From contig NZ_CP040818.1 in the NCBI RefSeq assembly GCF_005887635.2, forward strand, positions 2,262,501 through 2,326,500: a DNA stretch of 64,000 nucleotides, in the 5' to 3' direction. The DNA is from Paroceanicella profunda. Lineage in GTDB: Bacteria; Pseudomonadota; Alphaproteobacteria; Rhodobacterales; Rhodobacteraceae. This document shows positions 2,446 to 21,041 of this stretch, one piece after another (within the stretch, counting starts at the first letter, position 1; each line of letters starts with the position of its first letter). The position numbers and the translations under genes were made by a program. Below the pieces are notes generated by a model, which worked only from the letters and a program-made list of their open reading frames with translations, did no database searches and was not told the origin of the DNA.

Positions 2446-4131
<1,686 letters not shown>

Positions 4132-4366: not shown

Positions 4367-4727
4367 ACACGCCAGAATTTACGCCGGATCGACAATAAAC
4401 AACTGAAATAACGGTGGAATATTCGGCGGTGTCGGGCAGGCTCATTCGCATGACTGCGTGCTTCCGCGCATCATGGCGGGCGTCGGCATAGTGAAATAAC
4501 CTAGCTCCAAACCACGATTCCGGCGCGCTGCGCATCTGAACTTCCACCTCAACTCCTAATCGTCATGCCGCGGGCTCAGGCAGACCTTTCGACGAGGTAC
4601 GGTTCTCGTACATCGCGCACCTCGAAAATAGCCTGCCAGATGGTGATCGTCCAATGTGATTTGTGGTATGAGGTGATCTCATACGATTTTTCTTGATAAT
4701 GGCGTTGTTTCGGCGCATAACACGCAA
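4367..4727. other. Intergenic region between recombinase unit and RM operon
   Basis: 361 bases of lower GC, divergent promoter space between the recombinase pair (leftward) and the restriction-modification operon (rightward). The only structured part is the dyad at 4666-4684 with the adjoining AT-rich -10 region. An overlapping leftward reading frame exists but shows no recognisable protein. Confidence 0.5.
4666..4700 (+). promoter_or_regulatory. Putative promoter and operator of the type I RM operon
   Basis: GTATGAG (4666-4672), GTGAT spacer, CTCATAC (4678-4684) is a perfect 7-bp inverted repeat. It is followed by TTGATAAT, an extended -10-like box ending at 4700, 27 bases before the first ATG. 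The dyad covers the place where a -35 element would lie, which fits a repressor or controller site. No regulator gene is obvious nearby. Confidence 0.45.
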
Positions 4728-5279
4728 ATGAAGCATCTGAGCGAAATCGCGGAAGTTCTTAGCGGCATCCTCCCCCCGAAGGGTGCTGACCGAGATGCTG
4801 TATACGTTCAGATCAAGGATTTGCGTGATTACAATAGTGAGTTTCTTCGGGGGGCGGCGCCAAAAGCAAGGCGGGCGACGCGTATTGCTGTGCACGATCT
4901 TCTTGTGCCGTCACGTGGAGATCAGCTCGCTGCATTTCGTCCAACGCCGGACATGATCGGGGCTTTTGTTGGACTTGATGTCTACCTGGTCCGACCTGCA
5001 ATCCGGCGTGTTGATCCTGACTTCCTGTTTATTGCGCTCAATGACATTGCCGCTGTCCGGCAACTGAAAGCCTCGGCAACAGCAGGAGCTTTGCCTCGCA
5101 TTCCGAAGCAGGCGTTGGACGACGTCCTCCTGCCCCTTCCGTCTATGGAAAAACAACGCCGTATCGCACGGCTCGGCATCCTCGCGGCAGACTGCGAGAG
5201 GCTTCTGCGCCAGCGCCTGGCCGCCGAGGCAAAACTCAACGCCGCCCTCATTTCACGCTTGCTCAGAACACCCGCATAG
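4728..5279 (+). CDS. Short HsdS-like specificity protein (single TRD)
   Basis: 183 aa, less than half the length of a usual HsdS. It opens with a target-recognition-domain-like start (LSEIAEVLSGILPPKG) and ends with an S-subunit-style tail, IPKQALDDVLLPLPSMEKQ followed by a helical segment RIARLGILAADCERLL. This is the layout of one TRD plus one conserved helix. It starts the RM operon, ten bases before hsdM. Half-size S proteins can dimerise or exchange with full ones in other type I systems. Here a second, full-length hsdS is present, so this could be an alternative specificity subunit or a remnant of recombination. It has an intact frame. Confidence 0.75.
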   Translation: MKHLSEIAEVLSGILPPKGADRDAVYVQIKDLRDYNSEFLRGAAPKARRATRIAVHDLLVPSRGDQLAAFRPTPDMIGAFVGLDVYLVRPAIRRVDPDFLFIALNDIAAVRQLKASATAGALPRIPKQALDDVLLPLPSMEKQRRIARLGILAADCERLLRQRLAAEAKLNAALISRLLRTPA

Positions 5280-5289
5280 GAACGCCCCC

Positions 5290-6843
5290 ATGACCAGACC
5301 AGAAGACATCAACAATGCGGTATGGGCGGCGTGCGACACGTTTCGTGGCGTCATCGATGCCGAGCAATACAAGAACTACATTCTTGCGCTGCTCTTCCTG
5401 AAGTACATCAGCGACGTCTGGAACAAGCATTATCAGGAAATGCTGGAGGAATTCCGCGACCACCCCCAGCGCGACCTCCGCATCCGTCGCCGCCTTGAGC
5501 GGGAGCGCTTCAAGCTCAAGGAGATCGAGTACCGCAATGAAAAGGGTGAGGTCGTCGAGAACTTCCTGTCGAGCTTCGACAGCCTCTACGAGCGACGTAA
5601 TCGCGATAATGTCGGTGAGCTGATCAACATGGTGCTCGACGCTATCGAACAGGCGAACGAGCCAAAGCTGAACGGCGTGTTTCGCAATATCGATTTCAAC
5701 TCCGAGATCAGTCTTGGGCAGACCAAGGACCGGAACCGCCGCCTGAAGAATGTGCTGGAGGACTTCGCCAAGCCGAGCCTCAATCTCAGCACCGTCAGCG
5801 AAGACGCGATCGGTGAAGCCTATATCTATCTCATCGAGCAGTTCGCGGCTGACGCAGGCAAAAAGGCTGGCGAGTTTTTCACCCCGCGCAAGGTCTCAGA
5901 AGTCGTCGCCAAGCTCGCAGCGCCGAAAGACGGTGCGCTGATCTGTGACCCGGCCTGTGGCTCGGGCTCGCTCTTGCTGCGCGCCGGCGAAGTGGTGGGG
6001 ACGAATAACTTCCGGCTCTACGGTCAGGAGGCGAATGGCCAGACCGTCGCGCTCGCCCGCATGAACATGTTCCTGCACGGTCGTGATGCCGCCGATATTC
6101 GCTGGTGCGACACGATCAACGGCCCGACGCTGCTCGAAGGTGACCACCTGATGCGGTTTGACACGGTCGTCGCCAATCCTCCGTTCAGCCTCGACAAGTG
6201 GGGAGCGGAGAACGCGGAGAACGATCCGTTCCGGCGCTTTGCGCGAGGGGTGCCGCCGAAATCCAAAGGCGACTACGCCTTCATCCTGCACATGCTGGCG
6301 ATCGCCCGCCCTGGCGAAGGGCGTGTCGCCGTCGTCGCGCCGCACGGGGTTCTCTTTCGGGGCGGCGCAGAAGGCCGCATCCGCGAGAGCATCGTCCGTG
6401 ACAACCTCCTCGACGTGGTCGTCGGACTGCCCGCACAGCTCTTTCCTACAACGGGCATTCCCGTTTGCATCATGGTGTTCGACCGCGCGCGGGAAGCTGG
6501 CGGCGCAAGAGAGAGCGAGCGCGACGTGCTCTTCATTGATGCCAGTCGAGAATTCGGCTCCGTTAAGCGCCAGAACCAGCTGCGCGACGAAGACGTCGCG
6601 AACATTATTTCGACCGCACGCGCGCGCAGTGAAATTGAGCGCTACTCGCACCGCGCCTCGTTCGAAGAGATTGAACGGAACAAGTTCAACCTCAACATCC
6701 CGCGCTACGTCGACACCTTCGAGCCCGAGCCGGAGATCGACATCCAGGCGGTGCAGAACGAGATCCGCGAGCTTGATCGGCAACTCGCTGAAACCCGCGC
6801 CGAGATGAACCGCTATCTGAAGGAGCTCGGAATTGAAGTCTGA
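5290..6843 (+). CDS. hsdM: Type I restriction-modification DNA methyltransferase HsdM
   Basis: 517 aa. An N-terminal HsdM_N helical domain (about 10-150) precedes the N6-adenine methyltransferase domain with SAM motif DPACGSG at 220-226 and catalytic NPPF at 296-299. It ends in a coiled-coil tail (EIRELDRQLAETRAEMNR) that normally contacts HsdS. It methylates adenine in the asymmetric bipartite site chosen by HsdS and joins the HsdR2M2S complex. Length and all key motifs are normal. The stop overlaps the next gene by 11 bases. Confidence 0.95.
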   Translation: MTRPEDINNAVWAACDTFRGVIDAEQYKNYILALLFLKYISDVWNKHYQEMLEEFRDHPQRDLRIRRRLERERFKLKEIEYRNEKGEVVENFLSSFDSLYERRNRDNVGELINMVLDAIEQANEPKLNGVFRNIDFNSEISLGQTKDRNRRLKNVLEDFAKPSLNLSTVSEDAIGEAYIYLIEQFAADAGKKAGEFFTPRKVSEVVAKLAAPKDGALICDPACGSGSLLLRAGEVVGTNNFRLYGQEANGQTVALARMNMFLHGRDAADIRWCDTINGPTLLEGDHLMRFDTVVANPPFSLDKWGAENAENDPFRRFARGVPPKSKGDYAFILHMLAIARPGEGRVAVVAPHGVLFRGGAEGRIRESIVRDNLLDVVVGLPAQLFPTTGIPVCIMVFDRAREAGGARESERDVLFIDASREFGSVKRQNQLRDEDVANIISTARARSEIERYSHRASFEEIERNKFNLNIPRYVDTFEPEPEIDIQAVQNEIRELDRQLAETRAEMNRYLKELGIEV

Positions 6844-7771
6844 CGCTGCAAATTACCGCGCGCGGCGCATCGGACGCACGCTGAAGCTTTTTCTTGTCGA
6901 CGGCTCGCCGACCGGGGTGATCACGGCCGAGCTTGGGAACTGGTCGGGCAAGGCCGTCGTCGCGCCGCGCACGGCGCTGCCCGACCTCATCAAGCGCGAG
7001 GAAGCCTCGCGTACCGGTGTGTATCTCCTGATGGGTCCGGACCCGGACAATACTGCTCGCACGCTTGTCTATGTCGGTGAAAGCGACAGCGTCCGCACGC
7101 GGCTCGCCAGCCATGACTCCGACGACGCCAAGCAGTTCTTCACCCGCGTCTGCCTGATCGTTTCCAAGGACGAGAATCTCACCAAGGCACACGGACGTTA
7201 TCTCGAAGCGCGCATCATGGCGCTGATCCGGGCAGCTTCGCGCGCCGTTCTCGTCAACGGGACCGAGCCCGATTTCAAGGGGCTGCCGGAACCCGAAATC
7301 GCCGACATGGAAGGCTTCCTGTCTGAAATCGAAATCTTGCTGCCTGTGCTTGGTTTCGATGTTCTGCGCCGTGCTGCGGAAAGCGGCGACGCTGACAGTC
7401 CGGCGCGCGCGGACGAACCGATCTTCACGTTCACCGAAGCCGGCACCAATGCCCGGGCGCGTGAGGCTGGTGGCGAGTTCGTCGTGCTCGCCGGTTCATT
7501 GGCGCGGGTGAAAGAAACCAACACCATCCATGACGGTGCGAAGGATCAGCGTCGCCAGCTGGTCGAGGACGGCGTCCTGGTGAAGAGCGCGGACGGCCAG
7601 CACTATACCTTCGCCCGGGATGTCGCCTTTTCGTCGCCGTCCGGCGCCGCCGCCGTCGTCTACGGGGGAAACATTAGCGGTCCAGCGACCTGGCGGCGCG
7701 AGAGTGACGGGCTCACCTACAAGGAGTGGCGTCAGCAGCAGCTCGCGCAGGCACAGGGAGGCGAGGAATGA
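6833..7771 (+). CDS. GIY-YIG nuclease-like protein with DUF4357
   Basis: 312 aa from a TTG start overlapping the end of hsdM; no nearer ATG fits the conserved N-terminus. After about 60 residues comes a GIY-YIG-like core, TGVYLLMG then LVYVGESDSVRTRL, with a following RYLEARI glutamate in the place of the catalytic acid. The C-terminus (KDQRRQLVEDGVLVKS to GPATWR) resembles DUF4357. GIY-YIG/DUF4357 proteins are frequent companions of type I RM loci; their exact job there is not established. It sits between hsdM and hsdS with an ATGA overlap to the latter, so production is coupled to the RM subunits. It could add a second nuclease activity or regulate the complex. Confidence 0.85.
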   Translation: MKSDAANYRARRIGRTLKLFLVDGSPTGVITAELGNWSGKAVVAPRTALPDLIKREEASRTGVYLLMGPDPDNTARTLVYVGESDSVRTRLASHDSDDAKQFFTRVCLIVSKDENLTKAHGRYLEARIMALIRAASRAVLVNGTEPDFKGLPEPEIADMEGFLSEIEILLPVLGFDVLRRAAESGDADSPARADEPIFTFTEAGTNARAREAGGEFVVLAGSLARVKETNTIHDGAKDQRRQLVEDGVLVKSADGQHYTFARDVAFSSPSGAAAVVYGGNISGPATWRRESDGLTYKEWRQQQLAQAQGGEE

Positions 7772-9063
7772 GCGCGTCCGAAACCCTGGCCACCGAAATC
7801 GAACTGGACAACGAAACCGAGGATGCGGCATCGCGAGCCGTGAGTGCCTACCCTCCGAGCGTTCAACCAGGAATTCCAAAGCTCGGCCGGAAACCTGACG
7901 GTTGGACACGCGCGCCGATCGGCGAGTTCCTGGAGCCGGTCTTTCGGCCGGCGAAGCTCGCGGACGATGAGCGCTATCAGTTGGTTACCGCTAGACGTAG
8001 CCGTGGCGGGATCGTGCCCCGTGAAGTCCTCTTTGGCCGAGATATTCGCACAAAGACCCAGTTCTTCGTGAAAGCGGACGACTTCCTGATTTCGAAGCGC
8101 CAGATTTCACATGGCGCGTGCGGCATCGTTCCGCCGTCGCTCGATAGCGCCGTTGTGTCGAACGAATACGTCGCGCTCAAACCGAAGGCCGGGCTCGATA
8201 TGCGGTTTTTGAATCACCTATCGCACTCGGTCTATTTCCAGCAGACCTGCTTCCACTCAAGTATCGGCGTGCACGTCGAGAAACTGGTGTTCAAGCTCGA
8301 AGATTGGCTGGAATGGGAGTTCGATATTCCGCCTATGGCGGAGCAACTCCATTTGGCCGATGCCTTCGACAGTTGGGATCGCGCAATTCGGGGCGCTAAC
8401 CAAGGCATCGTCGCCAAGCTTTGCCGCAAGGCCGAGATTACACGCCAACTTCTCCACGAAGGCGGCGAAAGGAACGGCCGTATTGGCGACATTGCCGAGA
8501 TAAACCCCCGCAGCCCTCATGTTGAGCCCGAACAGCTGGTGACATTCGTTCCAATGGACGCGATGTCCGAGGACGGCCGACTTGTAAGAAATGAAGCGAG
8601 GAGGCGGGCCGCCATTGGATCCGGATATACAGGCTTCATCGATGACGATGTTCTCGTCGCAAAGATCACGCCTTGCTTTGAGAACGGCAAAGGCGGACAC
8701 GTCTTCGGCCTGCATTCCGGAGTGGGTTTCGGGAGCACGGAGTTCCATGTGCTGCGCGCCCATGATAAGCGCGATGTGCGGTTCCTCCATCACCACGTGA
8801 TGGCGAGAGCATTCCGCAAAAATGGTGAGCGCTACATGACCGGCAGCGCCGGACAGCGCCGTGTTCCGGCAGAATTCATTGAGGACTACCGGGTTCCCCT
8901 GATGGACGCAGGGCGGCGCCATCGTGCAGCAACGATCCTTGATGCTGCAGACCGGGAGATCGATCTGCTCCAGCAGGAGTTGCGCTGCTTCACTCACCAG
9001 AAGCGCGCCTTGATGCAGCGGCTTTTCAGCGGCGACGCCTTGACCACGGAGGCCGCTGAATAA
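7768..9063 (+). CDS. hsdS: Type I RM specificity subunit HsdS, full length
   Basis: 431 aa from the ATG at 7768, chosen because it overlaps the preceding stop as ATGA. Two target-recognition domains are seen: about 45-180, ending FDIPPMAEQLHLADAFDSWD, and about 235-390, ending YRVPLMDAGRRHRAATILD. Each is followed by a conserved helix, and the C-terminal one ends QKRALMQRLFSGD, a classic HsdS tail. It sets the DNA recognition sequence for methylation and restriction. The downstream gene starts within its stop codon (TAATG). Confidence 0.93.
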   Translation: MSASETLATEIELDNETEDAASRAVSAYPPSVQPGIPKLGRKPDGWTRAPIGEFLEPVFRPAKLADDERYQLVTARRSRGGIVPREVLFGRDIRTKTQFFVKADDFLISKRQISHGACGIVPPSLDSAVVSNEYVALKPKAGLDMRFLNHLSHSVYFQQTCFHSSIGVHVEKLVFKLEDWLEWEFDIPPMAEQLHLADAFDSWDRAIRGANQGIVAKLCRKAEITRQLLHEGGERNGRIGDIAEINPRSPHVEPEQLVTFVPMDAMSEDGRLVRNEARRRAAIGSGYTGFIDDDVLVAKITPCFENGKGGHVFGLHSGVGFGSTEFHVLRAHDKRDVRFLHHHVMARAFRKNGERYMTGSAGQRRVPAEFIEDYRVPLMDAGRRHRAATILDAADREIDLLQQELRCFTHQKRALMQRLFSGDALTTEAAE

Positions 9064-10403
9064 TGGTGGCGGCCGGCGGCTACATCCTTCAGGTGCCGAA
9101 GGACAGACGTAAGCTGCTTCTCGACGAAGCCGAACACGGCGGTTCGTTTTATTCGCCGAAACCCTTTGTCTCGGAACCTGTTCCGCGCTTCGACCACAGC
9201 CGTCGCGCGCCGCTTGCCGTTTTCGCGTCCTTCGAGGATGGCTTCATCACTCACATCGCCGGCGGACGAAAAGGACAGTCAGCGGGCACAGGCCTCGTCC
9301 GGCTGAATCTCGAAGAACTCCAACCGCTGAAGCGGCCCGTGAGCTTCGATGAGATCCTTGCTGGTATCGACATACGCGTTGCCCGGCACGTCAGGCAGCG
9401 CTTGGAAACAGGCGGCCTGCTCCCGCCGAAGTCGCTCGGCGCATTTGTTGATCGTATCACGCAACTCGATGAGACCGTCAGCCCACGCCTTGCGCGCTAT
9501 TCCGAGCGCCGCGCCCAAGCGCTGCGGCGGCTCGAGCCCCGTGCCCGCGAAAACCTCGCCTACCAGAAGGAAACGCTCGGCCTCGCACTCGAGATTGCTG
9601 GCATGTCGCGAGACGACCTTTTGGCGTGGACCCCGACGGACGCTTCACAGCAATCCTTCCTTGATGGACTGCCGGGCGCACAGGTTCGGGAAGATGCTAT
9701 GCTTTTGTCCGACTTCTCGACCGTGCCGGGCTTTGAAGCTGTGGGCGAGACCACCCACTACGGCTCGAAGGTGTTCGCGAGCGAAGAGGATTCGTCGAAG
9801 CGGTTGACGGTGATCATGGCCAACCGTCTGCCCCTCGAACAACAGACCGGCGCCGACCTCATCTACTTCAACGAAGCCTACCGCAGCTTCGTGATGGTCC
9901 AATACAAGGCGATGGAGAAGCGCGAAGACGAGGTGGAATTTCGTTGGCAGGCGAAGGATCAGTTCTGCGACGAAGTTAAGCGGATGGAGACCCTGCTGGG
10001 GGAGCTCAGGAAGCTCCCGAGCGGTGAGCACCCTGATGGGTTCCGCTTCTCGGACAACCCGTTTTTCCTGAAGTTCTGTCCGCGCGTTGTCTTCAACCCC
10101 GACGACAAAGGGCTCTTCAAGGGTATCTATCTGCCTCTCGATTTATGGAAGCGAGCGGATGCCGCTGGTCTATTCACGGGGCCGCGCGGCGGCAAGGTTC
10201 TGACCTTCAAGAACGTCGGTCGTCGAATCAACAATTCGGAGTTTGTCGGGCTCGTGGCCGGATCGTGGGTAGGCACGTCGATAGAGCAATCCGCTGTACT
10301 CAGCGAGATTGTCCGGCAGGTGCTGGAAACCGGGAAGACCGTCACGATCGCCATCAAGCACACCCCGCCTCCTCATGCGTCCGAAATGGAGGCCGATGAA
10401 TGA
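9063..10403 (+). CDS. Uncharacterised RM-operon protein, possible Mrr-like nuclease core
   Basis: 446 aa, family not recognised. No signal peptide or membrane segment is seen. Residues about 262-284 read TGADLIYFNEA then FVMVQYKAM: Asp265 on one predicted strand and Gln280-x-Lys282 on the next. This is the D...QxK arrangement of Mrr-type PD-(D/E)xK nucleases, where Gln replaces Glu. The following segment is rich in acidic and basic residues (EKREDEVEFRW). The N-terminal 130 residues look like a separate domain. The gene is locked between hsdS (TAATG) and a DUF6119-like gene (ATGA), strongly suggesting co-translation. The nuclease idea is inference from motif spacing only. Confidence 0.7.
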   Translation: MVAAGGYILQVPKDRRKLLLDEAEHGGSFYSPKPFVSEPVPRFDHSRRAPLAVFASFEDGFITHIAGGRKGQSAGTGLVRLNLEELQPLKRPVSFDEILAGIDIRVARHVRQRLETGGLLPPKSLGAFVDRITQLDETVSPRLARYSERRAQALRRLEPRARENLAYQKETLGLALEIAGMSRDDLLAWTPTDASQQSFLDGLPGAQVREDAMLLSDFSTVPGFEAVGETTHYGSKVFASEEDSSKRLTVIMANRLPLEQQTGADLIYFNEAYRSFVMVQYKAMEKREDEVEFRWQAKDQFCDEVKRMETLLGELRKLPSGEHPDGFRFSDNPFFLKFCPRVVFNPDDKGLFKGIYLPLDLWKRADAAGLFTGPRGGKVLTFKNVGRRINNSEFVGLVAGSWVGTSIEQSAVLSEIVRQVLETGKTVTIAIKHTPPPHASEMEADE

Positions 10404-12055
10404 GCAATACCCAGAAGCTTTCCATTCGCCTATTGCGAGATGGCCTCGCCCCCGCTGACGCAGTTCGCGACGGTGTAGACCTAACACCATGGGGCAAGCT
10501 GGAAGGCGCACTCATTTCATTGGCAACGCTCGGCGGCGGCGCGCCGAAATGGGCGCGGTTCCTCGAATTGTCAGAAGACGAGAAGAACAAGGTCTTCAAC
10601 CACACAGCCTTCGGACTCGTGTTCGTCCAGGCGTCAGGGCGTTGGTTCGCCGTGTCTTTTGGCATGGGTCACGTCAAACTTGATCCTGCGGCGTTCGAGC
10701 AGGATTTTGGGCTACGGGTCGTCCTCAACGCCGTTGACCCGAAGCAGTTAAAAAGTGCGGACGTTCGGACACCGGATGAGAATACTCTGTCCCGCCGTAC
10801 GCAGACCAGCCGGGGCTCCGATCAGACTGCCTTCGCCATCGACATCGAGCGCGACCTCGTCCGTGGACTGGCAGGGACGCCCAAAGATGAAGGGTTCGGC
10901 TCTTATGTAGCCGGGACCGATGGCCTGACGCTCAACCGAAAGCTTGAGATTGCGGAACTCTCCCAGGCCTGTGCGGACGCGTATGCAGTCTATCAGAAGA
11001 CCGACTACAAGACCGACTTCGGTTGGATCGACCAGATTCGCCACATCCGTGAGCAAGAATTGATCGACAAGCTGGACGCCAAGCTGGTCGAAGCTTTGGC
11101 AAAGGCGGTTGACGAAGGCGAGACCGACGGTATTCACCTCGCCTTTCCGGTCATCTATGACCCTGAGAAATCAAGCCTCATCCGCTACAAGGGTTTTCGC
11201 AGCTGGCAGCTTTATGCCGACCTCGACTTGCCCGGTTACCTCGACGCATTGAAGGAGCGCGAGAAAACCGGCTACTCGGACGAGGACCTCCGCAATCACA
11301 CCGTCCACGAAGTCGATGATGATGGCCACGACTGTGGTGGGAAGTGGAAGTTGCGGGAATGCATAGTGTTCGAGACAGAGCTCGATGGCTCGACCTACGT
11401 CTTCTCTGGAGGCCGCTGGTACCAGATCGACCAGAACCTTGCCAAAGAGGTACAGGAGTTTTTCGACGCGACAAGCAAGGTCGGCATGCCCGTCGCTGAG
11501 GCTGACGAGACAGAAGAGACCTACAACAAGCGCGTCGCCGGTCTTGATGCGGACATGATCTGCCTAGACCGTCGGCTCATCAAGCCAACAGGTGCTGCGA
11601 GCAAGATCGAAGCCTGCGACTTTCTCGGCCGTGAGCGTCAACTGATCCACGTTAAGGACAAGACGTCCTCGTCTCGACTCAGTCACCTTTTCAGCCAGGG
11701 GACCGTCTCCGCACGCGTCCTCGCGACCGATCCGCCGTCGCGCGACAGCGTTCGGAACGAAGTGATCGCAGTCCAGGCTGAAACCGGACAGACCGGCTAC
11801 GAGGACATCATTCCGAATTCCGGGAATGACTTCACCCGTGGTGATTTCCCCGTCGTCTACAGCGTCATTGCTGCATCTGATAAGCCGAAACTCCCCTTCT
11901 TCAGCTTGGTGTCGTTCCGCCAGGCTGCGCGCGAATTGCACGCGCTCGGCTACAAATGGGCTTTCGCCTGGATCGAGAAGCCGAAGTCTGGCGCGAAGGC
12001 GAAAGCCAAACGATCCGCGAAGGGCGCTGGAGAAGATGCGGAGGTCATAGAATGA
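10400..12055 (+). CDS. DUF6119 / TIGR04141-like protein
   Basis: 551 aa, close to the length I recall for the sporadically distributed TIGR04141/DUF6119 family. Features: an N-terminal block starting KLSIRLLRDGL, a central region with LAFPVIYD and YVFSGGRWYQID, and the segment IHVKDKTSSSRLSHLFSQG, which resembles the family's conserved K-x-SS-x-LSHLF block. The C-terminus is a basic lysine/alanine tail. No function is known. It starts inside the stop of the 446-aa gene and its own stop overlaps hsdR (ATGA), so it is embedded in the RM operon. It may be a nuclease-like or effector protein of the same defence system; this is inference. Confidence 0.75.
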   Translation: MSNTQKLSIRLLRDGLAPADAVRDGVDLTPWGKLEGALISLATLGGGAPKWARFLELSEDEKNKVFNHTAFGLVFVQASGRWFAVSFGMGHVKLDPAAFEQDFGLRVVLNAVDPKQLKSADVRTPDENTLSRRTQTSRGSDQTAFAIDIERDLVRGLAGTPKDEGFGSYVAGTDGLTLNRKLEIAELSQACADAYAVYQKTDYKTDFGWIDQIRHIREQELIDKLDAKLVEALAKAVDEGETDGIHLAFPVIYDPEKSSLIRYKGFRSWQLYADLDLPGYLDALKEREKTGYSDEDLRNHTVHEVDDDGHDCGGKWKLRECIVFETELDGSTYVFSGGRWYQIDQNLAKEVQEFFDATSKVGMPVAEADETEETYNKRVAGLDADMICLDRRLIKPTGAASKIEACDFLGRERQLIHVKDKTSSSRLSHLFSQGTVSARVLATDPPSRDSVRNEVIAVQAETGQTGYEDIIPNSGNDFTRGDFPVVYSVIAASDKPKLPFFSLVSFRQAARELHALGYKWAFAWIEKPKSGAKAKAKRSAKGAGEDAEVIE

Positions 12056-15000
12056 CCGAAAGCCCGAAATTCTCCCTTTCCGAAGCTGGTCGCGAGCAGC
12101 TTCAGGCGCTTATGACGCTGTCGGCGCTCGGCTGGCGCTATGTCACGCGCGCGGAGGTCGATCGACAGCGGCGGCACCGTCGCACTGGCGTCCTGCTTGA
12201 GGACACGCTGCGCACTCAGCTTGCAGCGCTTAACCGCATCCGCGCCAGCGGCCGCACGCATGCCTTCTCAGAGGGGAACATCGAGACGGCCGTCGAACGT
12301 CTCAAGGATGTCCGCTTCGATGGGTTGATGCGCACCAACGAGCGCCAGACCGACCTGATCCAGCTTGGCGTCGCGCTGCCGCAGACGGTGGATGGCCAGT
12401 CGCGCGAATGGCCGTTCCGCTACATCAATTGGGGCCTCGACGCGGACAATATGCGGGCGAACGCCTTCCATATGACGAGTGAGTTTCCGGTCGACTGGCC
12501 GGAGGGCGCGAGCATCCGCCCCGACATCGTTCTGTTCGTGAACGGCATTCCCTTCGCCGTCATCGAGGTGAAGCGGAGCCAGGAAAAGGTCGCGCAAGGC
12601 ATCAGCCAGCATCTGCGCAATCAGAAGCCCGATCTCGGTGCGCCAAACCTGTTCTTCACGGCGCAGCTGCTCATCGCCGCGAATTCGCATGAGCCCCGCT
12701 ACGCGACCGTTGGCACGCCGGCGAAGTTCTGGTCGGCCTGGCGCGAGCGCGAAGACGCGCCCGATTACGTCACCGAGGTCGTCAACCGAGCGATCGACAC
12801 AACAGATCAGGACGCGATCTTCCAGGACTTCGGCCTCCACCGCCGCAAGCATGACGGTCTGCGTGAGGCGGGGGACCGCTTCATCACACCGCTCGACGAA
12901 ATGCTGGTAAGTCTCTGCCGCCCAGAGCGCATCCTCGATCTCGCGCGCCGCTTCACGCTCTTCGATGGCGGTGTGAAGAAGGTGGCGCGCCATCAGCAAT
13001 ATTTCGCGGTGAAGGACCTGCTGAAGCGTGTCGATGCACGCGACGCCGGCGGACGACGCGCTGGCGGCGTTGTCTGGCATACGCAGGGATCTGGCAAGTC
13101 GCTGACCATGGTGATGCTCGCGAAGTCTCTCGCGATGAGTGTTCCCACAGCGCGTGTCGTGCTGGTGACCGACCGAACCGATCTCGACGACCAGATCGAC
13201 AAGACCTTCGCGGCGACTGGCCTGTCGCCCGAACGCGCCAAGACGGGCGAACACCTAGTCGAACTCATCGAAGCTAGGACGCCGGTCATCACGACCCTCG
13301 TTCACAAGTTCAAGGCCGGGCTCAACAAGCGCCGCGTGGTCGATGCAAGCACGGACATCTTCCTGCTCGTCGATGAGAGCCACCGCAGCCAGTACGGCGA
13401 CATGGAAAGCCTGCACCAGAAGATGCGCGACGTGCTGCCGGGCGCTTGCTTGATCGGCTTCACTGGCACGCCGATTGCGAAGAAAGAGCGCAATACCTTC
13501 ACCAAGTTCGGACCGCTCGTGCAGCCGGTCTATTCTATGAAGGATGCCGTCGCGGACGGTGCTGTCGTGCCGCTGCTCTATGAGGGCCGTCACGTCGAGG
13601 AGGATATCGACGAAGACGCGGTCGATGCCTGGTTCGACCGTGTGACCGTCGGCCTCAGCGAAACACAGAAAGCCGATCTCAAACGCAAGATGAGCCGCCC
13701 TCGGACGCTCATGGGCGTGTCAGCACGTCTGCGCTGCATCGCGTTCGACGTGAGTCGGCATTTCGCGGACAACTTCCAGTCTGACAGGCTGAAAGGTCAG
13801 CTCGTCGCGCCGTCCAAACGCGACGCGATCGCTCTGAAGAAGCTGCTTGACGAGTTCGGCGAGGTGACCTCGGAGGTTATCATCTCCGGGCCGGATCAGC
13901 GCGAGGGCGAACACGCCATAGACGAGGAATCTGACGACGAGGTGGTGAAGTTCTGGCGCCGGATGATGGAGCGACACGGCGGCGAGGAGAGCTACAACAA
14001 GACTATAATCTCAAAGTTCAAGGGGCCCGGCGAACCGGACATCCTGATCGTCGTCGACAAGCTGCTCACCGGCTTCGATGCGCCGCGCAACACAGTGCTT
14101 TACATGGCCAGACCGCTCCGCGAGCACGGTCTTTTGCAGGCCATCGCGCGCGTCAATCGTGTTTTCGACGAGGATGGCGCGCCTGAAAAACCGTTTGGCT
14201 TTATTATAGATTACTGCGGTGTGCTTCGTCACCTCGGCGAGGCATTGACGGCCAACGACGCGCTGCGGGACTTCGACGAAGCCGACCTGCAGCAGTCGGT
14301 CAGCGCAATCGCTGATGAAGCGCGTACGCTTCCCCAGAGGCACGCTGCACTCCTAGATCTCTTCGTTGGCGTTTCGAACGTCTACGACGAGGAAGCCTAC
14401 GCGCGAGAACTCGCAGACGATGCACTGCGCGATGACTTCTATCGCCGCCTCTCAGAATTCTCCCGCACGCTTACCGTCGCTGTCAGCTCCCGCGTGTTCA
14501 TTGAGGAAACACCTGCGGACCGGCTGCAACGCTGGCGAACCGATGAAAAGCGCTTTCTCGCGCTGCGCGCCCATGTGAAGGCTCGTTACGCGGACGCGGT
14601 GGACTGGAGCAACTACGAGCGACGTGTGCGCAGTTTGCTCGACCAGCACGTCACCGCACACGAGGTCACGACGATCGTGGAGCCCTTAGCCGTCTTCGAC
14701 GATGGCGCAATCGAAGCGGCACGGAGCGAGAAAAAGCGCTCGGATGCGTCGATTGCGGACGAGATTGCGCACCGAACGCTCCGGACGATTGAGGAGAAGT
14801 GGGACGAGGACCCTGTCTTCTTCGAGAAGTTTTCAAAACTTATCCGCCAGACCATCGACGACTTCCGTCGCGGTCGCTTGGAAGAGAAGGCCTATCTCGA
14901 ACGCATCCGAACGCAGCGCGATAAGCTCGACGCCCGTGACGATGAAGACGATCCGACGCCGCATCAGCTGCGTGGCAAGGGCAACGAAACCGCGTTCTGG

Positions 15001-15285
15001 GGGATTGCCAGAAAGGAACTGCGCCGTGCAGGGATCGATGATCCCCGCCTTTCGGTGCGTATTTCGCTGTCGCTAACCGAGATCATCGAGAATCGTCGGC
15101 GCGTTGGATGGCAACATGATCGAGACATTCAAAATGATATGCGCAATGCCATTGATGACTTCTTTTTCGATGACCTGATGGGTTCCGGCGGCGTGGACCT
15201 CGACGCAGCCGTGATGGACGGTATCGTCAATGAGGTGCTCTCGGCCGCACGGGTCCGCATGCAGGATGATGGCCGTGTCCGCTGA
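12052..15285 (+). CDS. hsdR: Type I restriction endonuclease subunit HsdR
   Basis: 1077 aa from the ATG at 12052, selected because it forms ATGA with the upstream stop. The PD-(D/E)xK nuclease is visible as RPDIVLFVNGIPFAVIEVK, with Asp158, Glu172 and Lys174. The translocase has Walker A TQGSGKS at 344-350, motif II DESHR at 441-445, GFTGTPI, and the late motif DKLLTGFDAPRN to QAIARVNR. It moves DNA through the bound complex and cuts unmodified DNA at a distance. All catalytic residues are present, so the enzyme looks functional. Confidence 0.95.
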   Translation: MTESPKFSLSEAGREQLQALMTLSALGWRYVTRAEVDRQRRHRRTGVLLEDTLRTQLAALNRIRASGRTHAFSEGNIETAVERLKDVRFDGLMRTNERQTDLIQLGVALPQTVDGQSREWPFRYINWGLDADNMRANAFHMTSEFPVDWPEGASIRPDIVLFVNGIPFAVIEVKRSQEKVAQGISQHLRNQKPDLGAPNLFFTAQLLIAANSHEPRYATVGTPAKFWSAWREREDAPDYVTEVVNRAIDTTDQDAIFQDFGLHRRKHDGLREAGDRFITPLDEMLVSLCRPERILDLARRFTLFDGGVKKVARHQQYFAVKDLLKRVDARDAGGRRAGGVVWHTQGSGKSLTMVMLAKSLAMSVPTARVVLVTDRTDLDDQIDKTFAATGLSPERAKTGEHLVELIEARTPVITTLVHKFKAGLNKRRVVDASTDIFLLVDESHRSQYGDMESLHQKMRDVLPGACLIGFTGTPIAKKERNTFTKFGPLVQPVYSMKDAVADGAVVPLLYEGRHVEEDIDEDAVDAWFDRVTVGLSETQKADLKRKMSRPRTLMGVSARLRCIAFDVSRHFADNFQSDRLKGQLVAPSKRDAIALKKLLDEFGEVTSEVIISGPDQREGEHAIDEESDDEVVKFWRRMMERHGGEESYNKTIISKFKGPGEPDILIVVDKLLTGFDAPRNTVLYMARPLREHGLLQAIARVNRVFDEDGAPEKPFGFIIDYCGVLRHLGEALTANDALRDFDEADLQQSVSAIADEARTLPQRHAALLDLFVGVSNVYDEEAYARELADDALRDDFYRRLSEFSRTLTVAVSSRVFIEETPADRLQRWRTDEKRFLALRAHVKARYADAVDWSNYERRVRSLLDQHVTAHEVTTIVEPLAVFDDGAIEAARSEKKRSDASIADEIAHRTLRTIEEKWDEDPVFFEKFSKLIRQTIDDFRRGRLEEKAYLERIRTQRDKLDARDDEDDPTPHQLRGKGNETAFWGIARKELRRAGIDDPRLSVRISLSLTEIIENRRRVGWQHDRDIQNDMRNAIDDFFFDDLMGSGGVDLDAAVMDGIVNEVLSAARVRMQDDGRVR

Positions 15286-15985
15286 TGCTTGTTTCCAATG
15301 GGGGCGACGACGGATCACCTACCGCGTCAGTCGGGATGAGCGAAGACGTTTGAAGATCACCGTCGCGCCGTCAGGCATGGTGGATGTCACTGCGCCGGTC
15401 GATGCAACGGTAGAGGAGGTCCACGACCGGGTTCGCCGCAAGGGTGGGTGGATCGCTGCGCAGATCGCTGACTTCGAGCAGTACCGTCCGAGAACGCCAC
15501 CGCGGCATTATATCAGTGGCGAAACGCACCTTCTGAGAGGCGTTCAATACAGGCTTCGCGTTCGACAAGGGGCTGCATCCCGCATCTATCTGAGTGGCGA
15601 CAGGATTGTCCTTGAAACCCCGCACACCGAGAGCGCCATTCACAAAGCGGCGCTGCTGAACCATTTCTATCGGCTTGAGGCACATCAAGAATTTCCGCTC
15701 CGCCTACTACAATTGGCTCCGCTGTTTGCATCCGAAGGGATGGACGTGCCGAAGTTGATAATCCGCCCGATGACGAAACGGTGGGGGAGTTTTACACCGA
15801 AAGGCAGCTTGGTCCTCAATCTAGATCTTGTCCGAGCGCCGATACAGTGCATCGATTATGTCATTGTTCATGAGTTGGCGCACGCTTTTGAACCCGACCA
15901 TGGGCCGCGCTGGCGCAGCCTGATGGACAAGGCCATGCCAGACTGGCGCGATCGCAAACAAAGACTCGAGACAAAGCTCCTTTAA
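15266..15985 (+). CDS. YgjP-like (DUF45, M48-type) zinc metallopeptidase
   Basis: About 239 aa. The start is uncertain among ATGs at 15266 and 15269 that overlap the end of hsdR; the frame is open further up. It shows the YgjP/SprT-like block RPMTKRWGSFTPKG and the zinc motif HELAHAFEPDHGPRW, where the two His and the Glu form the active site and a later His completes it. Genes of this family very often follow hsdR in type I loci, but the substrate is unknown. It overlaps hsdR by about 20 bases, so it belongs to the operon. Confidence 0.87.
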   Translation: MMAVSADACFQWGRRRITYRVSRDERRRLKITVAPSGMVDVTAPVDATVEEVHDRVRRKGGWIAAQIADFEQYRPRTPPRHYISGETHLLRGVQYRLRVRQGAASRIYLSGDRIVLETPHTESAIHKAALLNHFYRLEAHQEFPLRLLQLAPLFASEGMDVPKLIIRPMTKRWGSFTPKGSLVLNLDLVRAPIQCIDYVIVHELAHAFEPDHGPRWRSLMDKAMPDWRDRKQRLETKLL

Positions 15986-16275: not shown

Positions 16276-16491
16276 ATGCAGACCGATCCCTCGCACGAGG
16301 CCGCAGAGCGCGTGAATGCCAAGATCGCGGGAAATCCACAGACCGCGCGGACTACGGAACGGGATTCGGTGAAGATCGAAGTGCTCGTGGGTCGCCTTTC
16401 CCTGCAGGGTGTCGGTACGCCCCAGGTCAGTGAAATCGTTGGTCAGTTGATGGAAGAAGAAGGGGTCTCAATTGAAAACAATACCCCATGA
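16276..16491 (+). CDS. Possible small protein upstream of AbiV-like gene
   Basis: 71 aa, no recognised domain; the C-terminal half (VGTPQVSEIVGQLMEEEGV) could form a helix. Its stop overlaps the ATG of the next frame as ATGA, which argues for a real, coupled gene. The weak point is that the next frame's own first residues look unlike the family and may not be used. The 290 bases before it (15986-16275) hold nothing recognisable except possible promoter space. Confidence 0.35.
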   Translation: MQTDPSHEAAERVNAKIAGNPQTARTTERDSVKIEVLVGRLSLQGVGTPQVSEIVGQLMEEEGVSIENNTP

Positions 16492-17513
16492 GGAAACTGC
16501 TTTTCAGCACTCATTGCTCTAACTACCCACGCAGAGACGTGCCGATCTGTGTTATTCATCGAGGTGCGTGGCTCGAACAAAGGAAGGTGGAGGTGGCGGG
16601 CGGATCGAACGAGGGCTCGAAGCCAACAAAGAAAGACGAGGATCGGATCCCGTTCGGTAACCGGCATGCCAACATGCTGTGTAACATGCCGCGCGCCGCA
16701 CAGCTTGACCTGTTGGCAGAGGGGTTGCCGATCATACTCAAGAGCGCGCAGGGCTTCTGGAATGCGGCAGTGCAACTCTCCGACCATTCGCGCGAGGCCC
16801 GCGTGCTCGAAGGCTTCTGCGAGGAGGAATGCGCCAAGATCGTGATCCTGATGGATCTGGTGCGTTGCCCAAAGAAGCTAGCGAGCAGCCGCGCCGGCAA
16901 GCTCACTTCCGTCTTCTACGACCATCTCGGCCGGCTAATCTACGCCGAGGCCCAGAACTGGAAGCCGGTCAACCTCGCCCAGCTCCGCGAGTATGTCGAC
17001 CACTCGCGGGAAGGCCATTATCTCGAAGGCTATGCCGGTGAGTATATCGTTCCCAACTGGAGCCGCTACAGCCGTGAAAGCACCCTCTATGCAGATATCG
17101 AACTTCACGAGGATGGCCAACCGTACTGGAACGAGCCGACCCAGCTCGGAGCGATCGCCCTCGGTATCCCTCCACCGGTGCTGAGCCTCGCAGAGGCCAT
17201 GAGTGCGCTCGGGCTGTTCGACCGACGTGGCCTGCAAGCCGTGGCGGACGTCTGGAACCAACTTGAGTTCGTGGGCACGGAAAATTTCGAGGATAGCCGC
17301 CGGCTGACCGGCGAGCTGTTTGACAGGCTCGATGCCGAACAACTCGTCACCGAGGCCGCAACTGACCGGCATCCTGGCTGGATTCAGAACAACTGGCAGA
17401 TGCCGATGTATAATCTGGAGTTTCGGGAAATCCCGATGAAGCTCAGTGATCTAAAGGCGCAGCAGGAGGCCATGCTTTGGTCCGAGATTGGCTATGAGCG
17501 GGGAGACTATTAG
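16488..17513 (+). CDS. AbiV-like abortive-infection protein
   Basis: 341 aa as the longest frame; the conserved part begins only near residue 63, so ATG 16674 or 16686 are alternative starts. The helical segment LDLLAEGLPIILKSAQGFWNA and the following EGFCEEECAKIVILMDLV resemble the AbiV family, where an EE-x-K helix is followed by an RE-x-x-LYVD motif; here it reads YSRESTLYADIELHEDG. AbiV arrests translation in phage-infected lactococci; HEPN-like folds are common in such effectors. Function here is inferred from this partial pattern and from the defence-island context. Confidence 0.5.
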   Translation: MRKLLFSTHCSNYPRRDVPICVIHRGAWLEQRKVEVAGGSNEGSKPTKKDEDRIPFGNRHANMLCNMPRAAQLDLLAEGLPIILKSAQGFWNAAVQLSDHSREARVLEGFCEEECAKIVILMDLVRCPKKLASSRAGKLTSVFYDHLGRLIYAEAQNWKPVNLAQLREYVDHSREGHYLEGYAGEYIVPNWSRYSRESTLYADIELHEDGQPYWNEPTQLGAIALGIPPPVLSLAEAMSALGLFDRRGLQAVADVWNQLEFVGTENFEDSRRLTGELFDRLDAEQLVTEAATDRHPGWIQNNWQMPMYNLEFREIPMKLSDLKAQQEAMLWSEIGYERGDY

Positions 17514-17546
17514 ACGTGCGCGTCAGCTCGCCGACAGACAAGTCTG

Positions 17547-18461
17547 GTGGGCGCGCCAGCGATCGGAGATACGACAGATGAGATGGACCGGCGCATGGGT
17601 CGTCCCCTGAACGAAGCCGCCGACGTTGGTGATGAAGCGACGCCAGCGCCAGTAGGTGGCCTGACAATCTACATCGGCGATCTAGTCACGACGGCTTCAG
17701 ATCGAGCTGTGCTCGAAGCAGCAACCGGAACGCTGCACGATGCAGAGATGCCGGCCGTACTGCTCGCAAACTTCGACATCGGTCGCCAGATCGATCTGGT
17801 CGTCGCGACGGAGCAACAGGTTCTGCTCGTCGAAGCCAAGGGAAACCGGACGCCAGTCAGAGGGCAGGCCAATAGCGCCGCGGATTGGGCCGCTCGTACG
17901 GGCACCGGCCGGTGGGCGTCATTCCGCAGCCCCGTCCGTCAAGCGGACGAAGCACGTCTGGCGCTGCGAGACCGGCTTGCCGTGTTTCTCAGATCGTCAG
18001 CGCCTTATTTTCCCGGAGCCGTCATCTTTGCGCCCCAGGTTCCCCAGGGATCCGAGGTTCCGGCCGGTGACTTCAAGGTACGCATCGGCGATCTGACCGA
18101 TCTTTGCACTTGGGTGACGCAGGGGAATGGATCGTCGGGAGTGAGCCTGGCGCAATGGCGCGCATTTGCCGCCGATCTCGGGTTACGCAGGGTGTCGGGC
18201 ATTGCCGCAGCCTGCGACGGCAATCTCAACGCGGCTGAGACGCTGGTCGATACTTACCTGAATACATTCCGCGCTACCTACCAAACCAAGGCCGACGAAC
18301 TTATTTCAATACCATGCGAAGGCGCCTCCGGCATCGAGACATCGCTAGGCTTCGCGGAGGCCGTCGCCGCCGGAGATAGCATCGCACTCATCGGTCGATC
18401 GGGCTGTGGCAAGACCTTGGCTGCATGCCGATCCGGTATCCTCGCTGTTGGATGTCACTGA
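17547..18461 (+). pseudogene. NERD-domain/P-loop NTPase, 3' end lost to IS insertion
   Basis: 304 aa remain. The central region FDIGRQIDLVVATEQ followed by VLLVEAKG is a NERD-type nuclease-related core with the typical Asp and E-x-K. At the C-terminus IALIGRSGCGKTLA is a complete Walker A P-loop, the start of an NTPase domain. Right after it the frame runs into the inverted repeat of an IS21-family element and stops with residues from the IS (VGCH). The NTPase body is therefore missing. Such NERD-NTPase genes occur in defence islands. The likely start is ATG 17583 or the upstream in-frame start; the first 30 residues are unremarkable. Confidence 0.7.
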
Positions 18462-18517
18462 GAACTGACCCAGCATTGTCATCGAGATTTGACCCGCCTG
18501 TCAGTATGTCGGTCGGT

Positions 18518-19309
18518 TCATGATGGGGTCAACATTGGCGTCTCCTTCCTCTTTTTTTTCGCGGTCTCGGAGCTGGCCTTGAAGCGATAACTGTCGTTTC
18601 CGGTTTCCAGGATGTGGCAGCGGTGTGTGAGGCGATCGAGGAGCGCCGTGGTCATCTTGGCGTCACCGAAGACGCTGGCCCATTCGCTGAAGCTTAGGTT
18701 CGTGGTGATCACGACGCTGGTGCGTTCGTAAAGTTTGCTGAGGAGGTGGAACAGCAAGGCGCCGCCCGAGGCGCTGAACGGCAGGTATCCGAGCTCGTCG
18801 AGGATCACCAATTCGGTTTTCACCAACGCCTCGGCGATTTTCCCGGCCCTTCCCAGCGCCTTTTCCTGTTCCAGCGCGTTCACCAGCTCGACTGTGGAGA
18901 AGAAGCGCACGCGTTTGCGGTGATGCTCAATCGCCTGGACTCCGAGGGCGGTCGCCACATGGCTTTTCCCGGTGCCGGGCCCGCCAATCAGGACCACGTT
19001 TTCGGCAGCATCGAGGAACTCGCATCGATGAAGCTGCCGAACGAGGGCCTCGTTGACCTCGCTGGCCGCGAAGTCGAAGCCTGACAGGTCCTTGTGGGCC
19101 GGGAAGCGCGCTGCCTTCATGTGATAAAAGATGGACCGCACTTCACGTTCGGCCATTTCAGCCTTCAGCAGCTGGGACAGGATCGGGATCGCCGCATCGA
19201 ACGCAGGCGCGCCCTGTTCCATGAGGTCATGCACGGCTTGGGCCATGCCTGGCATCTTCAGACTGCGGAGCATGATGACGATGGCAGCTCCGGCGGGATC
19301 ATGACGCAT
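18518..19309 (-). CDS. istB: IS21 helper ATPase IstB
   Basis: 263 aa from the ATG at 19309, which overlaps the istA stop by 11 bases, the normal IS21 coupling. It carries Walker [11 protein letters not shown], Walker [12 protein letters not shown], and the sensor region [19 protein letters not shown], as in DnaA/DnaC-like AAA+ transposition helpers. It regulates target choice for IstA. Intact. Confidence 0.95.
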
Positions 19310-20828: not shown

Positions 20829-20943
20829 GTCGATCACTCCAATGACCCCCGACAAATCTCGTCAGGGGGAGGGTTCCACATGGGTCAATTCTCAGTGACA
20901 TTTCCTATCGCTGCTGGGTCAGTTCTCAGTGACATCCAACAGC

Positions 20944-20987
20944 AGCTTCGTTATGATGTCTTCGGGCTTCTCTCGTTTGCCTGCCAT
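20944..20987 (-). pseudogene. IS3-family OrfA, first 14-15 codons only
   Basis: On the minus strand ATG at 20987 begins MAGKREKPEDIITKL, the usual opening of an IS3-family OrfA transposase. It then runs directly into the IS21 inverted repeat and stops. A ribosome-binding sequence GGAGG precedes the ATG. The IS21 element therefore landed in an older IS3 element, and the remainder of that IS3 copy is gone. Confidence 0.75.
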
Positions 20988-21041
20988 CGTCGTAGTCCTC
21001 CGTGATACGGGATAAACTATCCCAAGGGGTGGACCACTTCA
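20988..21041 (-). mobile_element. Left end of truncated IS3-family element
   Basis: Upstream of the OrfA fragment, the sequence on the minus strand reads TGAAGTGGTCCACCCC at its outer edge and ends at the junction with the helicase gene near 21041. This edge is placed where helicase-like coding sequence begins and by the TGA-type terminus; it is approximate. Confidence 0.5.

Follow-up and report, generated by a model that had tools for sequence, protein, structure and literature searches.

The window analysed here (64,000 nucleotides of contig NZ_CP040818.1 of Paroceanicella profunda) contains a type I restriction-modification (RM) operon carrying foreign genes at two gene junctions. One of them encodes a protein of 446 residues, designated P446, which, with a probability of roughly 60%, is a type IV-like restriction enzyme docked in the type I scaffold together with its putative nuclease partner, a DUF6119 protein. 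The docking of defence genes in type I operons is already known; for the P446-DUF6119 cargo, no name was found in the profile libraries and literature searched.

Organisation of the operon

An open reading frame search revealed eight frames, all on the forward strand, spanning positions 4728-15985, and gene families were assigned with Pfam, PADLOC and NCBIfam profiles (Table 1). The gene order is half-length hsdS (half-S), hsdM, GIY-YIG/DUF4357, hsdS, P446, DUF6119, hsdR and YgjP, and most neighbours overlap: half-S and hsdM are separated by a 10-nt gap, the GIY-YIG gene overlaps hsdM and has a TTG start, the GIY-YIG/hsdS, P446/DUF6119 and DUF6119/hsdR junctions are of the ATGA type, the hsdS/P446 junction is TAATG, and YgjP overlaps the end of hsdR. 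The longest open frame of hsdS opens at GTG 7726, ahead of the ATGA start, and the start codon of YgjP is ambiguous within the range 15230-15275. Judging from these overlaps, the eight genes probably form a single transcript. An earlier note on this DNA had described the co-directional, mostly overlapping frames and the couplings after hsdM, which sequence and junction reading confirmed, and had placed GIY-YIG/DUF4357 between hsdM and hsdS, the 446-residue and DUF6119 proteins between hsdS and hsdR, and a YgjP gene overlapping hsdR, in agreement with the profiles; the first frame, which it left unnamed, encodes a half-length HsdS.

Table 1. Features of the operon and its upstream region, with positions counted from the first letter of the window
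Feature	Position	Strand	Basis
Perfect inverted repeat GTATGAG-5-CTCATAC upstream of operon	4666..4684	.	Sequence
Putative promoter TTGATA-17-CATAAC	4693..4721	+	By-eye reading
Half-length HsdS-like gene, 183 aa	4728..5279	+	PADLOC Specificity_I E 3e-11; Pfam Methylase_S below cut-off
hsdM	5290..6843	+	N6_Mtase E 1e-96; HsdM_N; motifs DPACGSG, NPPF
GIY-YIG/DUF4357 protein, docking site 1 (hsdM-hsdS)	6833..7771	+	DUF4357 E 3.5e-15
hsdS	7768..9063	+	Methylase_S; PADLOC Specificity_I E 1.5e-53; start = ATGA at 7768
P446, 446 aa, docking site 2 (hsdS-hsdR)	9063..10403	+	Predicted structure, invariant residues
DUF6119/TIGR04141 protein, docking site 2	10400..12055	+	PF19614 E 4e-153
hsdR	12052..15285	+	SWI2_SNF2, HSDR_N; motifs GSGKS, DESH, PD..EVK
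YgjP/SprT/M48-type metallopeptidase	15266..15985	+	YgjP-like E 2e-51; motif HELAH.....H

The three genes required of a type I RM system, hsdM, hsdS and hsdR, are all present, and the HsdM and HsdR motifs listed in Table 1 are intact. The GIY-YIG/DUF4357 protein matches the PADLOC model PDC-S14 over residues 13-306 (E 1e-114), its GIY-YIG domain scoring below the Pfam cut-off.

The inverted repeat upstream of the operon lies 62-63 nt 5' of the half-S start in the window and in three related loci (L003, L006, L010), with identical arms and a variable 5-nt spacer. It is unique in the 5.47 Mb genome at up to one mismatch (a control pattern gave 0 sites) and was additionally flagged as terminator-like; it is a putative operator or insulating terminator. 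Transcription from the putative promoter, which was not picked up by a consensus promoter scan, would begin approximately at the half-S ATG and yield a near-leaderless mRNA.

A recurrent type I scaffold with two docking positions

Half-S, hsdM, hsdS, hsdR and YgjP constitute a recurrent type I scaffold with two docking positions. Among the 23 other genomes with hsdR relatives at E <= 1e-60, ten were fetched, the closest ones with upstream DNA being favoured; slot counts from this sample are therefore not random. YgjP follows hsdR in nine of the ten. At the docking positions, relatives hold GIY-YIG, RhuM, Kiwa, PDC-S05 or PDC-S34 genes, or DUF6119 without P446, and some hsdR relatives contain no cargo between hsdS and hsdR. 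Kiwa is a complete known system; no report of Kiwa embedded with type I restriction or hsdR was found in the literature searched. A half-S-like gene also precedes hsdM in L062, L063, L145, L146, L155, L156, L158 and L159. Examples of this arrangement span Alphaproteobacteria, Gammaproteobacteria and Actinomycetes, with foreign genes between the hsd genes that vary across relatives on a constant scaffold. The type I operon appears to serve as a frame in which defence modules can be exchanged at two junctions. The gene content of loci was read from open frames and home-made HMMs, which divergent hsd genes may escape. Of seven plasmid regions with GIY-YIG genes that were inspected, the Rhodothermus region does not represent a type I operon and the Sphingobium region has a different gene order; among three plasmid regions with YgjP, that of Picosynechococcus has no adjoining hsd genes.

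The full eight-gene set was found in the window and in three of the 44 P446 loci (L003, L006, L010; genera Mesorhizobium, Stappia and Croceicoccus). Because the same order occurs in these genera and the scaffold recurs with cargo at two fixed positions, the genes are unlikely to be chance neighbours, and in this respect the earlier note holds. Its other proposal, a composite defence system, taken here to mean that the four accessory proteins and HsdRMS would act as a single dedicated machine, is quite unlikely. An order common to four genera, and DUF6119 directly following hsdS in L062, L063, L068 and L079, would fit such a machine, but the aligned DNA of the four full-set copies is 88-96% identical, so they represent one spread lineage, and relatives lack P446 and/or GIY-YIG or hold other cargo, Kiwa included, or none between hsdS and hsdR; the P446-DUF6119 pair also stands alone in other genera. 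In L003, half-S and hsdS may be broken, since each is split into two overlapping frames.

The earlier note would count accessory homologues lying mostly away from type I loci against the composite, and for P446 and DUF6119 the majority of the sampled genes do lie away from them. P446 was accompanied by a detected type I operon in five of the 44 genome loci (L003, L006, L010, L011, L022), some of the 44 being on short contigs, and in none of the four further P446 genomes from a sample of 385 genomes of the class, for which 11-20 kb each were examined. DUF6119 lies within a type I operon in two of 17 other genomes sampled; in a third, an RM operon adjoins it on the opposite strand, and in a fourth there is an hsdM-like gene only.

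P446 combines a predicted reader fold with a nuclease-like motif

Two sequence searches, each scoring a set of candidates capped at about 8,000, indicated at least 958-963 database relatives of P446 (E <= 0.001); no family scored above the cut-off in Pfam, PADLOC or NCBIfam, and no match was found among 50,697 phage records. Conservation was read from an alignment (A3) of 102 rows, hand-picked from 237 listed database proteins and the 44 loci; it omits L003-L010 (close to the window copy), near-duplicates (L026, L033), split or partial copies (L020, L035, L036, L045, L046), the plasmid loci and L043, which is a degenerate paralogue. The structure model has a pLDDT of 89.1; an earlier one, built from 19 close relatives, was dropped (pLDDT 50.6).

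Residues ~1-140 are predicted to adopt a PUA-like (EVE/YTH/ASCH) modified-base-reader fold: a fold search with the model returned EVE/YTH/ASCH-like proteins among the matches for this part. A Foldseek comparison with the PDB gave no match that reached E 0.001, and the viral structure library yielded one match (E 4.8e-4), an uncharacterised phage protein of 132 aa. In hhalign comparisons, where the EVE and Mrr profiles were built from class genomes, the N-terminus of P446 reached a probability of 4.3% against EVE, which is not significant, the mismatched controls giving 0.4% and 1.5%.

A helical middle part is followed by the invariant residues E259, D265, Q280 and K282, forming the signature E..D..QxK, where D265 and QxK sit on adjacent strands of the predicted model. 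Motif and strand order suggest that the C-terminal part is a putative PD-(D/E)XK-like nuclease. Its best local match to Mrr (PF04471) coincides exactly with the G-x-D..(V)QxK signature common to both, at a non-significant hhalign probability of 1.0% (mismatched control with EVE, 1.5%), and the Pfam scan gave no match to Mrr_cat. Among the fold-search matches listed, PD-(D/E)XK domains occurred only in whole restriction enzymes aligned via another domain; as the C-terminal half was barely probed by that search, their scarcity does not count against such a fold. Two weak helical matches from a sequence search of solved structures (E 0.03 and 0.3) were rejected as chance.

DUF6119 and the P446-DUF6119 pair

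The DUF6119 protein scores far above the curated cut-offs of PF19614 (511 bits vs 27) and TIGR04141 (443 bits vs 35). An alignment of 19 rows (A4, which omits the stop-broken L072 and the long or fragmentary L074, L075 and L076) and motif reading revealed a conserved ExxD..HxK..Q, a putative nuclease-like motif. A sequence search of solved structures found no relative, and hhalign probabilities against the Mrr and EVE profiles were 0.2-0.9%. In the literature searched, DUF6119 appeared in a wheat gene-family paper only, and no report was found for TIGR04141 or for a 'sporadically distributed protein' with restriction. Four (L061-L064) of the 29 plasmid records matching DUF6119 were opened.

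The P446-DUF6119 pair is separable from the operon: it occurs intact in other genera without detected hsd genes, beside decayed hsd ends, and on plasmid pAMI8. On the hsdS side, the relic similarity is weak in L005 and L007, being reached by 63 and 58 of 2000 shuffles, respectively; 6 of 2000 reached it in L061, and L008 gave no support (282 of 2000). Since remnants of hsd genes lie on either side of it, the stand-alone pair was set aside as the ancestral state, although the hsdS-side remnant is weak in L005 and L007 and absent in L008; pairwise dN/dS does not isolate the stand-alone branch.

Overlapping genes, occurrence on a plasmid and a position that can also harbour the toxin-antitoxin pair DarTG2 (PMC12255303) could also mark a selfish addiction pair that merely stabilises its island or plasmid, but DUF6119 was not detected alongside P446 in 36 of the 44 loci, including the type I operons of L011 and L022 that contain P446, and nine of the ten DUF6119 genomes in the class sample gave no P446 match, which leaves this explanation very improbable. 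Within the sample of 385 genomes, the two genes were found together in that of the window alone, so they are not obligate partners.

Proposed function

Type I RM cuts unmethylated DNA. The scaffold carries GIY-YIG/DUF4357 at the first docking position and P446-DUF6119 at the second; on the reading of P446 as a type IV-like enzyme, its PUA-like domain would recognise a modified base, or another aberrant mark, on invading DNA, and the PD-(D/E)XK-like domain would then cut. DUF6119 would most likely be its partner, possibly a second nuclease. Phages evading type I cutting through DNA modification would then face a second layer. Gene order, the scaffold with its cargo positions, the intact pair where no hsd genes were detected, the predicted fold of residues 1-140 and the invariant motifs are observations; enzymatic activity, the target modification, cooperation of P446 with DUF6119 and phage defence are proposals. 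Were they to hold, a single operon would act on phage DNA with and without modification, on the former through the type IV-like enzyme and on the latter through type I cutting, and a widespread unannotated family would acquire a specific testable role, reading modified DNA and cutting it.

Perhaps the pair instead guards its host system, sensing when the RM or BREX system around it is inhibited or lost and then attacking host DNA in an abortive response. P446 is embedded in methylation-based systems, both type I operons (the window, L003, L006, L010, L011, L022) and BREX-type loci (L023-L029); with a PUA-like domain able to read N6-methyladenine it could detect the mark of the host, YTH proteins being among the structure matches, and PrrC, an embedded guard (PMC12707154) that acts in this way for EcoPrrI, provides a precedent. 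Such a role is unlikely, however, since the pair persists intact where no hsd gene was detected within the DNA examined, and 39 of the 44 P446 loci, some on short contigs, have no detected type I operon.

P446 was also found beside Gabija genes. A broader version of the type IV-like reading can be advanced tentatively, at somewhat less than even odds: P446 may found an unrecognised modification-dependent restriction family (PUA-like reader, helical middle, PD-(D/E)XK) that moves as a plug-in among loci of the type I RM, BREX and Gabija kinds and, joined by DUF6119 as another nuclease subunit, equips methylation-based systems with their own answer to phages whose DNA is modified.

Relation to known systems

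VcaM4I pairs a modified-base reader with an HNH nuclease. From this enzyme (6yex) and other PUA-superfamily (EVE/SRA/ASCH/YTH) modification-dependent enzymes, P446 differs by its PD-(D/E)XK-like E..D..QxK signature and helical middle. BREX with BrxU has a type IV enzyme as a second layer; the likeness is that a single locus joins a methylation-based system to a nuclease predicted to be modification-dependent, whereas the nuclease family differs and type I RM is the host here.

The PADLOC candidates PDC-S05, PDC-S14 and PDC-S34 stem from a guilt-by-embedding approach (PMC12988326). The GIY-YIG gene of the window corresponds to PDC-S14, and the same embedding logic applies; neither P446 nor DUF6119 has a matching model in PADLOC-DB 2.0.0.

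The RRDM island of enteropathogenic E. coli (EPEC) comprises RptR, a type I RM system, DarTG2 between hsdS and hsdR, and an M48 metallopeptidase downstream (PMC12255303). In both loci a pair of defence genes (putative in the window) separates hsdS from hsdR in a type I RM system, a metallopeptidase of the M48/SprT type follows hsdR, and a palindromic sequence lies upstream. The pair is DarTG2 there and P446-DUF6119 here, the half-S and GIY-YIG genes are additional here, the first gene is a repressor there and half-S here, and three 6-bp repeats there contrast with one perfect repeat with 7-bp arms here.

Organisation of the Operon

Eight open frames follow one another on the + strand of the window, and family searches assign all but P446; in order, they are half-S (an HsdS-like gene of half length), hsdM, a GIY-YIG/DUF4357 gene, hsdS, P446 (encoding a 446-aa protein with a predicted PUA-like reader domain and a PD-(D/E)XK-like signature), a DUF6119/TIGR04141 gene, hsdR and a YgjP-like metallopeptidase gene. 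HsdM, HsdR and YgjP keep their motifs intact. As read from the sequence, half-S and hsdM are separated by 10 nt, the GIY-YIG gene overlaps hsdM by 11 nt from a TTG start, ATGA marks the junctions GIY-YIG/hsdS, P446/DUF6119 and DUF6119/hsdR, TAATG marks hsdS/P446, and hsdR and YgjP overlap. Frames, families and junctions bear out the description, made in the earlier note, of eight co-directional genes with mostly overlapping junctions; the operon is real and informative, and its genes are presumably transcribed together as a single mRNA.

Coordinates of the features discussed
Feature	Sequence	Position	Strand
Large serine recombinase gene	window	2446-4131	-
Perfect palindrome GTATGAG-5-CTCATAC and the putative promoter after it	window	4666-4721 (region)	
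Eight-gene operon	window	4728-15985	+
half-S	window	4728-5279	+
P446	window	9063-10403	+
Region downstream of the operon	window	16488-23378	
IS21-type istA/istB pair	window	18518-20855	
BREX-type locus	L027	2643-18955	
Type I locus with RhuM and Kiwa genes	L156	2841-12644	
ATP-binding protein and S8 peptidase genes upstream of the P446-DUF6119 pair, plasmid pAMI8 (region)	L061	5394-8735	
Tandem P446 genes	L043	7377-11311	

In a published type I operon from E. coli, DarTG2 occupies the hsdS-hsdR interval, a repressor lies upstream and an M48 metallopeptidase downstream; the study reports phage protection by the DarTG2-bearing island and terms the site a potential recombination hotspot (PMC12255303). 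In two further papers, the PDC families (PADLOC candidate defence families) are the outcome of a guilt-by-embedding approach (PMC12988326), and PrrC is cited as a guard whose gene resides within a type I locus (PMC12707154). Given these published embedded genes, the arrangement in the window is already known in kind; what is new is its cargo, the P446-DUF6119 pair, which is separable. Neither member of the pair has a model match in PADLOC-DB 2.0.0, and the literature searched mentions DUF6119 only in unrelated wheat work and TIGR04141 nowhere.

Docking Sites in Related Type I Loci

HsdR relatives (E <= 1e-60) were found in 24 of the 385 genomes of the class sample, the window's own included, and 10 of the 23 others were examined; YgjP follows hsdR in nine of these ten, and half-S lies upstream of hsdM in four. 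The half-S gene is a recurrent scaffold part in several genera. L156 carries RhuM (PDC-S05) at the hsdM-hsdS junction and KwaA-KwaB, the Kiwa system, at the hsdS-hsdR junction; in L159 the first site likewise holds RhuM and the second a PDC-S34 gene, and in L158 both sites have genes of no clear family. The hsdS-hsdR gap measures ~1.4 kb in L155 and ~0.8 kb in L157, with no family found in it, and holds a 144-aa frame in L164; no gene lies there in L161, L162 or L163, and L160 is broken, with neither hsdM nor hsdS recognised.

Plasmids of Mameliella and Mesorhizobium contain half-S, hsdM, hsdS, DUF6119, hsdR and SprT in this order, without P446 and the GIY-YIG gene, and plasmids of Phyllobacterium and Methylocystis contain half-S, hsdM, GIY-YIG, hsdS, other cargo (a hypothetical gene in each, together with a DUF3800 gene in the first and a serine/threonine kinase gene in the second), hsdR and SprT. 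Rhodococcus, Acinetobacter and Alteromonas have the GIY-YIG gene in the hsdS-hsdR interval, as probably does Ketogulonicigenium, in which the final gene bears a helicase-family annotation and is HsdR by our HMM only; in Klebsiella, a YecA gene occupies this site. Since the cargo varies at both junctions of the relatives' scaffold, hsdM-hsdS and hsdS-hsdR each serve as a docking site where genes are interchangeable while the frame stays constant. There are, however, counter-examples: a GIY-YIG gene outside any type I operon on a Rhodothermus plasmid, a different gene order around GIY-YIG in Sphingobium, and a YgjP relative in Picosynechococcus with no hsd genes adjoining.

Occurrence of P446 and DUF6119

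An alignment scan for P446 over the genomes of 84,980 species revealed 44 loci besides the window, a count that is not exhaustive, since two short peptide patterns underlay the scan. Three of these loci have all eight genes in the same order (L003 Mesorhizobium sediminum, L006 Stappia indica and L010 Croceicoccus; in L003, half-S and hsdS are each split into two frames). Their DNA identity to the window is 88-96%, with the alignment gap falling in hsdS, which indicates one spread lineage with an exchanged hsdS and not repeated assembly. Two loci have P446 inside a type I operon without DUF6119 (L011, L022), four have P446 adjoining DUF6119 with no hsd genes detected (L004, a 3.7-kb contig, L005, L007 and L008), and in L015 P446 is divergent from a distant DUF6119 gene. 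P446 lies downstream of a DUF6079/BrxC-type gene in seven loci (L023-L029), named as BREX by PADLOC in L027 only (BrxC, SIR2, HerA, PglXI, BrxHI) and by sequence clustering in the others; a 4.3-kb contig (L036) has a methylase family in common with them. In L027, P446 is embedded along with a SIR2-HerA pair. GajA- and GajB-type neighbours occur in six loci (L012, L033, L037, L039, L040, L044), the Gabija-type naming resting on PADLOC for L033 and L012, and no named system is attached in the remaining 20.

In the class sample, P446 was found in 5/385 genomes (E <= 1e-10) and DUF6119 in 10/385, the two together in the window's genome only; the other four P446 carriers showed no hsd or DUF6119 gene within the 11-20 kb examined in each. 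Among 17 other genomes of the class and phylum samples, DUF6119 is inside a type I operon in two (L068, L079), beside one on the opposite strand in one (L078) and near an hsdM-like gene only in one (L069).

The earlier note regarded the coupled genes as one composite defence system rather than chance neighbours. That reading is partly right: the recurrence of the scaffold with genes at set junctions agrees with it, but the full set represents a single lineage, its P446-DUF6119 pair is separable, and no type I operon was detected at most P446 loci, some of them on short contigs, contrary to what that reading implied.

The Separable P446-DUF6119 Pair

In L005 and L007, DNA identity to the window spans from the start of P446 to 7 bases past DUF6119, and on plasmid pAMI8 (L061) the pair recurs with 94-95% protein identity; no hsd genes were detected in the DNA surrounding the stand-alone copies. 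Immediately upstream of the pair, pAMI8 has genes for an ATP-binding protein and a subtilisin-type (S8) peptidase. L008 apparently retains the beginning of hsdR over 13 codons (85% identity, E 0.98, position as expected). A shuffle comparison, covering L005, L007, L008 and L061, indicated a resemblance of the downstream flanks to the hsdR start (score reached by 0 to 6 of 2000 shuffles) and a weak resemblance of the upstream flanks to the hsdS end in L061, L007 and L005 (6, 58 and 63 of 2000, respectively), with no such signal in L008 (282 of 2000). Both frames are open in all five stand-alone copies; relative to the window copy, their P446 has a dN/dS of 0.10-0.19 and their DUF6119 one of 0.06-0.12, and the values in the three full-operon copies are 0.10-0.21 and 0.05-0.06, respectively. 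The simplest account of these sequence comparisons is that the restriction-modification (RM) genes were lost around the pair, which was retained by selection; a pair kept after such a loss would work, or at least matter, without this RM system.

The best reading of P446, the first member of the pair, is a type IV-like restriction enzyme that is so far unnamed. The window DUF6119 protein contains the motif ExxD-x9-HxK-x13-Q, in which E404, D407, K419 and Q433 do not vary, and H417 hardly does, among 19 members that share 20-99% identity with the window copy. We take this motif to resemble a PD-(D/E)XK core with a C-terminal Q, and DUF6119 may tentatively be considered a putative PD-(D/E)XK-like protein; comparison with solved structures found no structural support.

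The tandem P446 genes of L043 include a first copy without D265 and K282. P446 is split into two frames or contains stops in L020, L035, L045, L046 and L166 (three Bradyrhizobium contigs, one Brachymonas contig and one class genome).

Surroundings and Putative Regulatory Signals

23S, 5S and tRNA-Met genes lie upstream of the operon, and the 3' end of the large serine recombinase gene overlaps the tRNA-Met gene beside the rRNA operon; due to this overlap, the operon probably sits on an island integrated at that tRNA gene. The palindrome, located 62 to 44 nt 5' of the first ATG, has no second copy in the window's genome; its arms are identical in all four full operons, 62-63 nt 5' of the half-S start, and its spacer is variable. 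By eye, a putative promoter (TTGATA-17-CATAAC) can be read downstream of it, which would place the mRNA start at about the first ATG, making the transcript near-leaderless. The palindrome may be an operator of the operon; it can alternatively be read as an insulating terminator.

Downstream of the operon, the window encodes a protein whose AbiV/HEPN match is weak, and a NERD protein, followed by the istA/istB pair and helicase-like frames; the NERD gene reaches up to the IS21-type insertion and may be interrupted by it.
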